From NCBI GenBank assembly GCA_001515265.1, contig LNDB01000002.1, forward strand, positions 1 to 64,000: DNA of 64,000 bases, given 5' to 3'. Both the position numbers and the translations under genes were made by a program. Shown in pieces: positions 8,942 through 59,618 of the stretch. Each line of letters starts with the position of its first letter. Within the stretch, counting starts at the first letter, position 1. The notes beneath the pieces are model-generated. The model ran no database searches and had not been told where the DNA came from. It saw only the letters and a list, made by a program, of their open reading frames with translations. Source of the stretch: Candidatus Dichloromethanomonas elyunquensis (GTDB lineage Bacteria > Bacillota > Desulfitobacteriia > Desulfitobacteriales > Syntrophobotulaceae).

Positions 8942-8974
8942 AAACAAACTATATAGAGACTATATAGTTTGTTT
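8942..8974 (-). terminator. Perfect 14-bp stem-loop at the metF 3' end, candidate terminator
   Basis: AAACAAACTATATA / GAGAC / TATATAGTTTGTTT; includes the metF stop codon; T-rich downstream on the minus strand. Confidence 0.6.
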
Positions 8975-9850
8975 ATTGATTGAATAGATCAGGGATCCTA
9001 AATTCCGAAGAATATCTTTGGTTATCTGAGGTTTATTCATAGTAAATATATGGACCCCATTGACGTCCTGAGATAACAAATCAATGATTTGTTCCGTTGC
9101 GTAAGCTATCCCGACATCTTTGATAGCCTCTTGATTATGTTCAAACTTATCGAGAATACGGGTGAGTTTTAAAGGCATTTCAGAATTAGTAAGCGATAGC
9201 ATTTTTTCAATAGATTTACGATTGGTAATCGGCATAATTCCTGCTTGAATCGGAACATTAATGTTCTGCTGAGCAGCCTTATTCCTAAACCGGTAAAACT
9301 GATCATTATTGAAAAAGAGCTGCGTAACTAAAAAACTAACCCCTGCATCGACCTTGCGTTTGAGATTTTCTATATCTTTATCGAGACTGGAACATTCAGG
9401 ATGAATTTCAGGATAACAAGCCCCTCCCAAACAAAAGTCGAATTTACTGGCAATATACTGAGCCAGATCGGAGGCCTGCTTAAAATCATTGGGCAGATCG
9501 GCAGGGTTTGCATCCCTGGGAAAATCCCCGCGTAAAACCAAAATATTGGATATGTCATTATCTTTTAATTCGTTGAGAATTTCATCCATCTGGGATTTGG
9601 AGGAACCAATACAAGTCAGGTGAGCCAAAGAGTTCAGTCCATATTTATTTTTGATTTTAGCTGCAATTTCCACAGTCGTTTTTGTTGAGCTTCCTCCTGC
9701 ACCATAAGTAACACTAATATAATCGGGTCTTAATGGGACAAGTCCATCAATCGTTTCAAAAATTACATCAATCGAAGATACTTGTTTCGGCGGAAAAATC
9801 TCGAAAGAGACCACTGCTTGCTTTTGTTTAAATAGTTCGGTTATTTTCAA
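8960..9850 (-). CDS. metF: Methylenetetrahydrofolate reductase
   Basis: 296 aa; VSFEIFPPK, SVTYGAGGS, NILVLRGD, LVTQLFFN motifs. Confidence 0.93.
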   Translation of the reverse strand: MKITELFKQKQAVVSFEIFPPKQVSSIDVIFETIDGLVPLRPDYISVTYGAGGSSTKTTVEIAAKIKNKYGLNSLAHLTCIGSSKSQMDEILNELKDNDISNILVLRGDFPRDANPADLPNDFKQASDLAQYIASKFDFCLGGACYPEIHPECSSLDKDIENLKRKVDAGVSFLVTQLFFNNDQFYRFRNKAAQQNINVPIQAGIMPITNRKSIEKMLSLTNSEMPLKLTRILDKFEHNQEAIKDVGIAYATEQIIDLLSQDVNGVHIFTMNKPQITKDILRNLGSLIYSINKQTI

Positions 9851-9942
9851 CTTCTTTGCCTTCTTTCTTATTAAATATAATTATTAACTCAACTTTCCCA
9901 TTTCTTTTTGAGGGAATAAACTAGAAGCCAGGAGGCGGCTAA

Positions 9943-9971
9943 TTTACAGTATAGAAAAAAAATACTATTAA
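9943..9971 (+). promoter_or_regulatory. Candidate sigma-A promoter for the acs operon
   Basis: TTTACA - 17 nt - TATTAA, upstream of the structured leader and acsA. Confidence 0.4.
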
Positions 9972-10001
9972 AAATACGATTTTACTGCAAAAGGTCTAAA
10001 A

Positions 10002-10155
10002 TTGCTTGTCAGTGGCAATACATCGCAGGAGAACGAATGTATTCCCCAAAAAAACGCCGTTTTGTTTTTGCTGAGTATGCGGCTCTTCAATGGTAAAAAC
10101 GTGGATTCTAGGCCAAAAAACTGGTTACCAGGATTAATTGGCCGCTGACAAGCGA
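10002..10155 (+). ncRNA. Candidate structured 5' leader RNA of the acs operon
   Basis: Long-range closing stem 10002-10016 / 10141-10155 (15 bp with two U.G wobbles on the plus strand) enclosing hairpins 10017-10023/10037-10043, 10051-10055/10059-10063 and 10111-10116/10138-10143, the last containing CTGG-TTA-CCAG. Confidence 0.45.
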
Positions 10156-10249
10156 ATAAAGGCTTTTGGAAGGAAAAGTATTTTAAAAATTTTGATTTTT
10201 GAGATAGAATAAGTAGCGAAGATTATTATTTCAATAGGAGTGGGATCAA

Positions 10250-12208
10250 ATGGCTCACAATGTATTATTCGGGAATATAGCACAAGATTTGGCAACAGAA
10301 GAACTTTATAAGAAAGCACAGACAGAAAACATCGAAACGCTTTGGGACAGGAAAGCTGCTCTTAAAAGTCAATGCGGTTTTGGAGAGCAGGGAGTTTGCT
10401 GCCGGATTTGTACCATGGGGCCGTGCAGGGTAAGTCCGATCCCAGGAAAAGGTGTACAAAGAGGTATTTGCGGGGCTACGGCCGATGTAATTGCTTCCAG
10501 GCATTATGCCAGGATGGTGGCAGGTGGAGTGGCTGCCCACAGTGATCACGGCAGAAACATCGCACATACCTTGCACATGGTAAGCAGCAACGGAAGGTAT
10601 CAAGTGCGTGATGACAAAAAGTTGTTGGAGGTCGCAGCCAGATGGGGAGTTTCTGTAGAAGGAAAAGACATTAATGCAATAGCTCAGCAAGTTGCAGAAA
10701 TGGCTTTAAATGATTTTGGCAAACCTTTTGGCAATTTGACGCTGCCGGGCAGTGTGCCGGATCAAAGAAAAAAAGTCTGGGAAGAAAATAAAATTCTTCC
10801 GAGAGCGATTGACAGGGAAGTTGTAACAATTATGCACGCCACTCATATGGGTTGTACGGCAGATGCTGAAAGCATGGTTAATTTGGCAATGCGGACATCC
10901 TTGACGGATGGTTGGGGAGGATCCTTTATCGGCACAGAATTTAGTGATATTTTATTCGGAACTCCGGTACCCCGCGAAATTGAAGCCAATCTAGGAGTAA
11001 TCCAAACGAATATGGTTAATATCGTTTTACATGGACATGAACCGGTTCTGTCAGAAATGATTGTTCTCGCTTCGGAAGAACCGGAAATGAAAGCTTTGGC
11101 TGTCAAAGCCGGAGCAGATGGGATTAACCTGGTTGGTATGTGCTGTACTGGGAATGAAGTTACGATGCGGCACGGAGTAAAGATAGCCGGAAATTTCCAC
11201 CAACAGGAATTTGCCGTTTTAACGGGAGCCGTAGAAGCTGTAATTGTGGATGTTCAGTGTATTTTCCCGGCATTGGCCACGCTTACCCAATGTTATCATA
11301 CGAAGTTTATCACAACTTCTCCTTTGGCCAAGATTACCGGGGCAATCCATGTTGAATTTAATGAGAAAGATGCGTTTGAAAGTGCCAAAAGAATTATCCG
11401 GGAAGCAGTTGAGAATTTTCACAACAGAAAACCGGAAAAAATACTAATTCCTCAAATCAAATCTCAGGGCATGGTTGGTTACAGTAATAGGGCAATTATC
11501 GGACAATTAGACAGGGTAGTCAATTCTTATACCCATAAATCTGGGAGTTTCGAGCCGCTGGCACAATGTCTGGTGTCCGGAGTCTTAAGGGGAGCGGTAG
11601 GAGTTGTTGGCTGCAATAACCCCAAAGTCAAGAGCGACTATGGGCACATAGAAATTATTAAGAAAATGATTGCCAATGATGTAATAGTGGCAGTCACCGG
11701 GTGCGCTGCGCAAGCTGCAGCAAAAGCCGGTCTCTTGAGTAAAGAAGCTGTTCAGTATTGCGGCGAAGGACTGAGGAAAGTTTGTGAACTGGCAGATATT
11801 CCCCCAGTTCTGCATATGGGTTCCTGTGTCGATATTAGCCGGATTTTGGAACTCGTCGGTGAAGTTGCCAAAATCCTGAATCTGGATATGAGTGAACTGC
11901 CTGTGGTCGCTTCGGCACCGGAGTGGATGTCGGAAAAGGCGGTAGCTATAGGTACGTATGCAGTCAGCTCCGGCTTGGATACTTTCCTGGGAGTAACGCC
12001 GCCGGTTACAGGTAGTCCGGAAGTAACAGATATTTTAACAAACAGAATGGAAAATTGGGTGGGCGGCAAGTTTTACTTTGAAACCGATCCTCTTCAGGCA
12101 GCGGAGAAAATGCTGGCCAGAATCGAAGAAAAGCGGGCTAATGTCGAAAAACTTAATATCCAAAGAATGTGTGTTACAGGATACGATGAATTAAGTCCCG
12201 GATTTTAG
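10250..12208 (+). CDS. acsA: Anaerobic carbon monoxide dehydrogenase catalytic subunit (AcsA/CooS)
   Basis: 652 aa; N-terminal CGFGEQGVCCRICTMGPCR and C-cluster motifs (HGHEPVLSEM, GMCCTGNE, VDVQCIFP, VTGCAAQ, HMGSCVD). Confidence 0.95.
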   Translation: MAHNVLFGNIAQDLATEELYKKAQTENIETLWDRKAALKSQCGFGEQGVCCRICTMGPCRVSPIPGKGVQRGICGATADVIASRHYARMVAGGVAAHSDHGRNIAHTLHMVSSNGRYQVRDDKKLLEVAARWGVSVEGKDINAIAQQVAEMALNDFGKPFGNLTLPGSVPDQRKKVWEENKILPRAIDREVVTIMHATHMGCTADAESMVNLAMRTSLTDGWGGSFIGTEFSDILFGTPVPREIEANLGVIQTNMVNIVLHGHEPVLSEMIVLASEEPEMKALAVKAGADGINLVGMCCTGNEVTMRHGVKIAGNFHQQEFAVLTGAVEAVIVDVQCIFPALATLTQCYHTKFITTSPLAKITGAIHVEFNEKDAFESAKRIIREAVENFHNRKPEKILIPQIKSQGMVGYSNRAIIGQLDRVVNSYTHKSGSFEPLAQCLVSGVLRGAVGVVGCNNPKVKSDYGHIEIIKKMIANDVIVAVTGCAAQAAAKAGLLSKEAVQYCGEGLRKVCELADIPPVLHMGSCVDISRILELVGEVAKILNLDMSELPVVASAPEWMSEKAVAIGTYAVSSGLDTFLGVTPPVTGSPEVTDILTNRMENWVGGKFYFETDPLQAAEKMLARIEEKRANVEKLNIQRMCVTGYDELSPGF

Positions 12209-17100: not shown

Positions 17101-19227
17101 ATGAATTTATATAACACCGTATTTGCTGGCGCAAAGCAAGCATTGGATACTGCAGCTGAATATGTTGAAAAGGCAATCTCCATAAAAGGTATGGAGCATA
17201 AAGTTGCTTTTCCTGATACTGCTTACTCTATGCCACTGATTTATGCCATCACCGGCAAAAAAATCAGTACTTTGGAGGAACTTCAAGCTGCGGTAGATAT
17301 TGTCCGAAATCTCATTGTGAGAAAAGAGCAGCTGAGGGAAGCTGAAAATGCTGGAATGGGAGCTGCTGTAGCCGCTGAGATCATTGAAGTACTGAAATAT
17401 GTTACTCTGGAAAAACCCTATGAGGATCCCTGTATGGGATTTCTTCCGGACGCGGTTATTCGCGGCTGGGGTGTAGGTTTGGTAACAGATGACATTCCAG
17501 GGCAAGCTGTCATCATTGGAGAATTCCCTGATAATGAATCCGCTGCCAAAGTTATCAAGGAATATCAAACAAAAGGACTTCTGACTTTCCTTGTGGGTAA
17601 AGTTATTGACCAGGCGATAGAGGGCGGTGTTAAAGTAGGACTTGAGTTCAGGGTTATGCCTTTAGGTTATACCATGACCTCGGTGATTCATGTTGTGACC
17701 GTAGCCATTCGTGCAGCCTTGATCTTCGGTGCTTTAACACCGGGCAATTGGGAAGAGTTTAAGAAATATACTTATAAGAGAATTAGAGCGTTTGTTAATG
17801 CTGTCGGACCTTTAAGCAACTTTAAAGTTGCTTGCGGTGCCGGTGCTATTAACCTAGGATTTCCGATTGTAACTGACCAAAATGTTGCTGAAGTTCCGAT
17901 GAAGCTTATTACCCAAAAAGATTATGATAAGATGGCTGCAACATCACTGGAAATACGCAATATCAAGGTTAAAATTACAGATATCCCTATTCCGGTTGCC
18001 TTTGCTGCTGCATTTGAAGGGGAAAGAATCAGAAAAGAGGCTATGTTTGTTGAATTCGGCGGCGGAAAAACCGATTCCTGGGAACTTGTAACTCAAAGGG
18101 ATATTGGTGAAATCGAAGATCATAAAATTACCGTTATTGGTGATGATATTGATAGTGTTACCCAAGCGGAGGGAAGAATGCCTCTGGCTGTGCTAGTCGA
18201 AGTAGCTGGGAAAAACATGCAGCCTGACTTTGAGCCGGTTCTGGAAAGACGTATCCACTATTTCATGAACTATATCGAAGGTATTATGCACGTTGGGCAA
18301 AGAGATACTACCTGGGTCCGTATCGGTAAGGATGCTTACGAAAAAGGTTTTAGGCTCCGCCATTTTGGCGAGGTGCTTTATGCCAAGATTCTGGATGAGT
18401 TCGGAGCGGTGGTGGACAAATGTCAGGTGACAATAATTACCCAGGAAGCTAAGGTAAAAGAATACAAAGAAAAATATGCTTTCCCTAAATATAATCACCG
18501 AGACGAAAGAATTGCCAACATGACGGACGAGAGTGTCGATACTTTTTACTCCTGTACGCTTTGCCAATCATTTGCTCCTGCCCATGTCTGCATTGTTACA
18601 CCGGAAAGACTGGGACTATGCGGAGCCGTAAGCTGGTTAGATTCCAAAACTACCAAGGAATTAGATTCGACAGGACCGTGTCAGCCTATTTCTAAGGATG
18701 GTGTGGAAGATAGCATCAAGGGTTGTTGGACATCCATCAATGAAGCGGTAAATACCTTATCCCAGGGGAAAGTAAACCGTATCACCCTATACAGTTTATT
18801 GGAGGATCCTATGACCTCCTGCGGTTGTTTTGAATGTATTGCGGGGATTATGCCTGAAGCCAACGGTATCGTTATTGTTAACAGGGAATATTCCGGCCAG
18901 TCTCCTGTCGGAATGACCTTCGGAGAATTGGCATCTATGACAGGCGGAGGGGTTCAATCCCCGGGCTTTATGGGTCATGGACGGCATTTTATCTCATCCA
19001 AAAAATTTATTTCCGCCGAAGGTGGCCCAGGAAGAATTGTCTGGATGCCCAAAGAATTAAAAGACTATGTAGCCGACAGACTCAATGCCACAGCTAAGGA
19101 ATTATACGCTATTGACAATTTCACAGATATGATCTGCGATGACACAATAGCAATTGAGTCCGAGGCAGTATTAGAATATTTGACGGAAAAAGGACATCCC
19201 GCCCTCACGATGGACTCACTCCTTTAA
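17101..19227 (+). CDS. acsB: CO-methylating acetyl-CoA synthase (AcsB)
   Basis: 708 aa; A-cluster motifs CTLCQSFAPAHVC, LCGAVSWLD, SCGCFECI. Confidence 0.96.
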   Translation: MNLYNTVFAGAKQALDTAAEYVEKAISIKGMEHKVAFPDTAYSMPLIYAITGKKISTLEELQAAVDIVRNLIVRKEQLREAENAGMGAAVAAEIIEVLKYVTLEKPYEDPCMGFLPDAVIRGWGVGLVTDDIPGQAVIIGEFPDNESAAKVIKEYQTKGLLTFLVGKVIDQAIEGGVKVGLEFRVMPLGYTMTSVIHVVTVAIRAALIFGALTPGNWEEFKKYTYKRIRAFVNAVGPLSNFKVACGAGAINLGFPIVTDQNVAEVPMKLITQKDYDKMAATSLEIRNIKVKITDIPIPVAFAAAFEGERIRKEAMFVEFGGGKTDSWELVTQRDIGEIEDHKITVIGDDIDSVTQAEGRMPLAVLVEVAGKNMQPDFEPVLERRIHYFMNYIEGIMHVGQRDTTWVRIGKDAYEKGFRLRHFGEVLYAKILDEFGAVVDKCQVTIITQEAKVKEYKEKYAFPKYNHRDERIANMTDESVDTFYSCTLCQSFAPAHVCIVTPERLGLCGAVSWLDSKTTKELDSTGPCQPISKDGVEDSIKGCWTSINEAVNTLSQGKVNRITLYSLLEDPMTSCGCFECIAGIMPEANGIVIVNREYSGQSPVGMTFGELASMTGGGVQSPGFMGHGRHFISSKKFISAEGGPGRIVWMPKELKDYVADRLNATAKELYAIDNFTDMICDDTIAIESEAVLEYLTEKGHPALTMDSLL

Positions 19228-27871: not shown

Positions 27872-28009
27872 TTAGAAGATCACTGCGAGAGCAATAAGGA
27901 TTAGAATTGCAATTGCGATAATAGCTGCTCCCACAGTATTATATGCGGGACCAGGGGTAACTACAGGGGTAACCATCGGTCTGCAGCAGCATCCGCTATA
28001 ACCGTACAT
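27872..28009 (-). CDS. YjcZ-like tiny membrane protein (45 aa), type A
   Basis: MYGYSGCCCRPMVTPVVTPGPAYNTVGAAIIAIAILILIALAVIF; below the ORF-track length cutoff. Confidence 0.8.
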   Translation of the reverse strand: MYGYSGCCCRPMVTPVVTPGPAYNTVGAAIIAIAILILIALAVIF

Positions 28010-58781: not shown

Positions 58782-58913
58782 ATGTATGGAGCTTGCGGCG
58801 CTGCAGCCTATCCGGGTACTTTTGGCGGATATGCTGGGGGAGGCTTTGGTGCGGGGGTAGGAATTATTGCCATAGCTGTTCTGATTCTGATCGCACTTGG
58901 TGTAATTTTTTAG
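58782..58913 (+). CDS. YjcZ-like tiny membrane protein (43 aa)
   Basis: MYGACGAAAYPGTFGGYAGGGFGAGVGIIAIAVLILIALGVIF; GAGGAGGG RBS. Confidence 0.82.
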   Translation: MYGACGAAAYPGTFGGYAGGGFGAGVGIIAIAVLILIALGVIF

Positions 58914-59458: not shown

Positions 59459-59618
59459 AAAGGGGCTATCGCAAAACTTCCCAGAAGTTTCCATAACGTA
59501 TAGACGCTCTCGGCAGATTGCGCCCTCCTTGGCGTAAACAACCGCGCTTCGCTTCCTGCTTTGCTTGACGCTGTCTATACGTTATTGGAAACGTTGTTTC
59601 GCGGCAGCCCTTTTAACG
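59459..59618. repeat. ~160-bp imperfect palindromic element (MITE/REP-like or structured RNA)
   Basis: Left arm AAAGGGGCTATCGCAAAAC...GTTTCCATAACGTATAGAC pairs with right arm GTCTATACGTTATTGGAAAC...GTTTCGCGGCAGCCCTTTT. Confidence 0.65.

Follow-up and report, generated by a model that had tools for sequence, protein, structure and literature searches.

What occupies the 399 bp that separate the divergent genes metF and acsA in Candidatus Dichloromethanomonas elyunquensis, and would a transcript of this gap control the acs operon, whose first gene is acsA? A long stem sits in the gap, and the original prediction, made from the window (the whole stretch of 64,000 nucleotides analyzed here, from a genome of 2.08 Mb that is 82% complete), took it to close a structured regulatory leader of the CODH/ACS transcript. 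If real, such a leader would mean RNA-level control of the central enzyme of the Wood-Ljungdahl pathway. In the literature searched on this pathway, structured 5′ UTRs and UTR-dependent translation have been reported (including PMC8407422), and neither a riboswitch nor a leader peptide was found for acsA. MTHFR, Prismane/CODH, CdhD, ACS_CODH, and RACo proteins were all confirmed at the locus with Pfam. The fold, its placement before acsA, and an ORF on the plus strand agree with a regulatory leader, while neither conservation in the genomes searched nor a switch output was found. We tentatively read the region as the 5′ leader of the acs transcript, structured, specific to this species, and possibly encoding a leader peptide.

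Results

The predicted fold and its hairpins

The 13-bp core stem, described as extendable to 15 bp, was present base for base as 15 contiguous pairs on plus-strand RNA (P1, Table 1), and so were the two U.G pairs claimed at 10013/10144 and 10003/10154. The distance to acsA, given earlier as about 95 nt, is 94 nt from the end of the element to the ATG at 10250. Folding of a longer transcript brought out an additional outer helix, P0, which the original prediction had missed and which is joined to P1 by a symmetric 4x4 internal loop.

Table 1. Features of the metF/acsA region; helices, hairpins, and promoter-like sites are predictions.
Feature	Position	Strand	Basis
metF (methylenetetrahydrofolate reductase), divergent neighbor	8960..9850	-	Pfam PF02219, E 5.1e-83
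Weak sigma-70-like promoter of the original prediction, TTTACA-17-TATTAA	9943..9971	+	9/12 matches
P0 outer helix, 5′ strand	9990..9997	+	8 bp with 10160-10167, two G.U; MFE folds of 9986-10171 and 9978-10290
P1 closing helix, 5′ strand	10002..10016	+	15 contiguous pairs with 10141-10155; pair probability 0.81-1.0
Hairpin P2, AATACAT/ATGTATT plus 2 inner pairs	10017..10043	+	MFE -4.8 kcal/mol alone
Shine-Dalgarno AGGAG of the small ORF, 5 nt before ATG	10027..10031	+	Sequence, scan
Small ORF, 19 codons, MYSPKKRRFVFAEYAALQW, stop TAA; candidate leader peptide	10037..10096	+	Sequence, ORF scan
3′ hairpin, predicted dominant	10104-10109/10130-10135 and 10111-10115/10122-10126	+	Pair probability 0.59
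Alternative 3′ hairpin GGCCAA/TTGGCC around CTGG-TTA-CCAG	10111..10143	+	Pair probability 0.16
P1 closing helix, 3′ strand	10141..10155	+	Partner of 10002-10016
P0 outer helix, 3′ strand	10160..10167	+	Same two MFE folds (9986-10171, 9978-10290)
Promoter-like site TTTAAA-17-TAGAAT, downstream of the fold	10182..10210	+	9/12 matches
acsA (CO dehydrogenase, Prismane/CODH family)	10250..12208	+	Pfam PF03063, E 1.4e-175

In the modeled ensemble P1 appears near-certain and P2 likely, with most pairs of AATACAT/ATGTATT at probabilities of 0.7-0.9 in the 9978-10290 transcript, and the predicted pairing of the interior is less certain. Among the inner hairpins proposed earlier, P2 is therefore the likely one, while the hairpin at 10051-10063 (pair probability 0.18) and GGCCAA/TTGGCC are minority states; the best predicted fold has the 10104-10135 hairpin and lies 1.4 kcal/mol ahead of the fold with GGCCAA/TTGGCC. 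The competition that had been suggested between the last hairpin and the closing stem does exist, but P1 is not toggled by it and survives the loss of three inner pairs. Since GGCCAA/TTGGCC takes just those three pairs, its main competitor would be the other 3′ hairpin and not P1 as a whole.

The overall fold is just moderately unusual. Compared with shuffled sequences, its energy gave z values of -3.65 on the plus strand and -4.64 on the minus strand, or -3.78 (9986-10171) and -4.08, respectively, with flanks, and it ranked in the best 4% (plus) and 2.6% (minus) of 900 intergenic windows from the same genome. P1 was fourth of 1044 long-range helices overall and second of the 118 intergenic ones. 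The null sets were drawn from 449 kb of this genome, taken as stretches; the helices comparable to P1 that occur there in coding DNA presumably arise by chance. Fold strength is unusual for a region of 400 bp, yet a few such folds are expected per genome.

A small ORF within the fold and the direction of transcription

A leader peptide calls for a short ORF with a Shine-Dalgarno sequence inside the candidate leader, and the region holds one (AGGAG-5 nt-ATG, 19 codons), which the original prediction overlooked. Its Shine-Dalgarno sequence lies in the loop of P2 with a predicted unpaired probability of 0.94, and its AUG lies in the stem of P2 (0.21). ATG-initiated ORFs of 10-60 codons with a properly spaced AGGAG or GGAGG number only 13 in 50.7 kb of intergenic DNA on both strands, several of which are evidently real small genes; estimated by proportion and after the fact, chance alone would place such an ORF in a 250-nt leader in at most 1-2% of cases. 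This rarity favors transcription of the plus strand, for which the small ORF, though noticed after the fact, is the best single argument. The four G.U pairs in P0 and P1 lean the same way, being intact on plus-strand RNA only, while A.C mismatches break both helices on the minus strand. Cotranscription with acsA, as proposed originally, is in agreement with the G.U pairs and the plus-strand ORF, which is well placed and lends a transcribed leader support of an independent kind, while fold energy picks neither strand. No credible homolog of the 19-aa peptide was found in the genomes searched; a match in one genome (G009) was rejected because it lies within a long acetolactate-synthase-like ORF.

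Promoters and possible regulatory output

Only the site at 9943-9971, put forward earlier as a plausible promoter, would place the fold in the mRNA. The site is present but weak: it failed a stricter scan and ties with other sites, being equaled by that at 10182-10210, which would yield a 5′ UTR of about 33 nt without the fold, and by one promoter-like site on the minus strand, where such sites lie at 10249-10222 and 10234-10206. In Acetobacterium woodii, acsD is transcribed with a 5′ UTR of either 31 or 121 nt, of which the longer one has a complex secondary structure and occurs under one condition, and the genes of the Wood-Ljungdahl pathway have a median 5′ UTR of 38 nt; the same study found translation efficiency to be lowered by highly structured 5′ UTRs (PMC8407422). 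The short and long forms provide a precedent for a start of acsA transcription on either side of the fold.

No intrinsic terminator was found on the plus strand after the fold, and there was no fold-linked control of the acsA ribosome-binding site, whose Shine-Dalgarno accessibility stayed at 0.25-0.30 in all modeled states, whether or not the fold was present or a ribosome occupied the small ORF; the region thus shows no output of the classical riboswitch or attenuator kind. The small ORF, on the other hand, is predicted to influence the 3′ part of the fold. The probability of GGCCAA/TTGGCC was 0.16 with no modeled ribosome, 0.02 with an initiating one, which is predicted to favor the alternative pairing, and 0.60 with a terminating one covering 10080-10108. 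Such a ribosome-set shift of the 3′ hairpins would be compatible with a leader that acts on mRNA stability or through a binding protein.

Search for relatives of the element

BLAST of the region against 60 relatives, 84 class-level genomes, and 398 phylum-level genomes returned only the region itself and short matches at chance level, the two best of which (in G379 and G176) were rejected as coding genes. With a covariance model made from this one sequence, a search of 41 genomes recovered only the element, the reverse strand of the element, and three weak matches (in G001, G019, and G021), which look coding, are without P1, and were likewise rejected. These genome sets (41, 60, 84, and 398) overlap partly. 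When the 400-bp region was aligned locally with the sequences upstream of acsA in six relatives, the scores were not clearly above those of dinucleotide shuffles; the best, with p = 0.01, came from 23 nt of AT-rich sequence that the fold does not include. The original prediction had made its case depend on conservation in relatives, and none was seen in the genomes searched; these include none of the same species, which is why the result is not decisive.

The surroundings of the two genes differ among the relatives as well. In the sister species, the only one that a scan of genome contigs returned, with an AcsA identity of 84%, about 93 bp lie between the stop codon of the upstream gene and acsA, which leaves no room for the element, and in the relatives of genus g2, acsA has a different leader of 200-400 nt. 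Most relatives have metF a short distance behind purD (a gene recognized visually by its GSGGREHALAWK start), with no leader in between, and acsA behind a different gene pair. Because metF follows purD in most relatives, the metF/acsA junction, and with it the whole intergenic region, looks lineage-specific.

Two features of these other leaders were noted in passing. The sequence of the approximately 210-nt acsA leader that follows TACTATAATAATC (L004:1225-1455 and its equivalents in L005-L007) is conserved in four g2 species, among which neither a covarying pair nor a small ORF with a ribosome site was detected. Repeats resembling TATATACA/GTATATACAGGTATAT precede acsA in the sister species and in g2 relatives (L003:1410-1440; L004:1080-1150; L005-L008) and may form an operator; they are not clearly present in the window.

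Comparison with known RNA classes and mobile elements

The element had not been recognized earlier as a known riboswitch class, and this agrees with a check against Rfam 15, which gave no match at the gathering threshold, and the best matches of permissive searches over the region were far below the cut-offs. Like metabolite riboswitches (for cobalamin, THF, and others), the element is a multihelix domain before an operon of corrinoid- and folate-using enzymes, but it differs from them in having no Rfam match, no relatives found, and no output platform. As neither homologs in the genomes searched nor an expression platform was found, we do not propose a new riboswitch class. The sequence AGAAGCCAGGAGGCGGC at 9922-9938 resembles the 3′ signature of cobalamin riboswitches; it has no Rfam match, and the space upstream of it is too small for such a riboswitch. 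The size near 180 nt and the long closing stem recall 6S RNA, from which the element differs in its multibranched interior, 6S RNA having one central bubble. That assignment was rejected, as RF00013 has no match here and the 6S RNA of this genome lies at C2:163002-163183.

A retron-like reading of the closing stem and hairpins was also considered, and no reverse transcriptase was seen among the neighbors, which are metF and the acs genes. A MITE or other mobile inverted-repeat element was rejected because the element is single-copy and its arms, flanked by ...CTAAAA and ATAAAG..., have no target-site duplication. The only other exact copy of the P1 arm, at C10:33601, is inside a coding gene, and the element had no match in plasmid, phage, and viral contig collections.

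Discussion

The findings suggest, without compelling it, a species-specific structured leader of the acs transcript. The 8-bp P0, the 4x4 internal loop, and the 15-bp P1 would together form a rod that encloses the hairpins and the small ORF in a domain of about 125 nt. Most likely, such a leader would act at the RNA level: its rod would shield the mRNA toward the 5′ end, and a ribosome translating the small ORF might open P2 and shift the balance between the two mutually exclusive 3′ hairpins. That shift might in turn adjust the stability or the expression of acs mRNA. The long 5′ UTR of A. woodii acsD is comparable as a structured leader of a Wood-Ljungdahl gene, but transcription starts have been mapped there, and it belongs to another gene and organism with no homology implied (PMC8407422).

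That the fold has no function is the main competing possibility, though one to which we give somewhat less credence. The inverted repeat might have arisen by chance in a metF/acsA gap made by rearrangement, with the promoter of acsA near the gene. A junction that looks lineage-specific, comparable helices in coding DNA of the same genome, a fold no further out than the best 4% of intergenic windows, and the lack of conservation in the genomes searched all point this way, as do the TAGAAT promoter-like site at 10182-10210 and the short median 5′ UTR of the A. woodii pathway genes (PMC8407422). Against chance stands the coincidence of several unusual features, namely, a 15-bp helix, a coaxial 8-bp helix, a low energy, and, within the fold, a small ORF that has a good ribosome site.

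It is unlikely that the region is instead a free-standing unit between metF and acsA, such as a small RNA, a gene for a 19-aa small protein, or what remains of a small mobile element. Terminal inverted repeats that are imperfect (13/15 identical), the self-contained character of the domain, an ORF that brings its own ribosome site, and the absence of the element upstream of acsA in the sister species would suit such a unit, but the single copy, the location of the second exact arm within a coding gene, the missing target-site duplication, the lack of plasmid, phage, or viral-contig matches, and the lack of a terminator directly after it on the plus strand speak against it. A 5′ leader of metF, read from the minus strand, is very improbable: the z values of minus-strand RNA (-4.64, and -4.08 with flanks) and the promoter-like sites on that strand would allow it, but A.C mismatches would interrupt both P1 and P0, the small ORF is on the plus strand, and metF shortly after purD has no leader in most relatives.

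If the region is a leader of acs as we prefer, it resembles the leader-peptide (translation-coupled) leaders of other bacterial operons, with which it shares a short ORF with its own ribosome site and a ribosome position predicted to choose between hairpins. It differs from them in that no terminator or antiterminator, no masking of the acsA ribosome site that depends on the fold, and no conservation were found here, and in that the 19-aa peptide has no regulatory amino-acid run or recognized arrest motif. A narrowly distributed CODH/ACS leader, closed as a whole by the long rod, in which translation of this peptide from a start codon paired in a hairpin controls acs in response to a C1-pathway signal is a doubtful prospect. 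We regard the region as a candidate leader from a single genome, with a plausible leader peptide, rather than as a demonstrated RNA class, and its main use is that it offers specific bases to test, in the small ORF, P2, and P1.

Other elements came to notice during the analysis. At 59475-59600 of the window, a near-palindromic sequence, GTTTCCATAACGTATAGACG...GTCTATACGTTATTGGAAAC, forms a strong predicted fold (z -5.5) that has no match in Rfam. The window also encodes short Gly/Cys-rich proteins of 35-45 aa with a hydrophobic IIAIAILILIALGVIF-like tail, at 28009 and 28212 on the minus strand and at 58782, 59134, and 59281 on the plus strand, all of which have a good ribosome site and resemble small spore-type (YjcZ-like) proteins. 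Of all intergenic folds in the 449 kb sampled, the strongest, with z values down to -10 and no Rfam match at the gathering threshold, is that of L075:17943-18380 (approximately 181.9-182.4 kb of C2), which lies directly 5′ of a Shine-Dalgarno-bearing small ORF at 18528.
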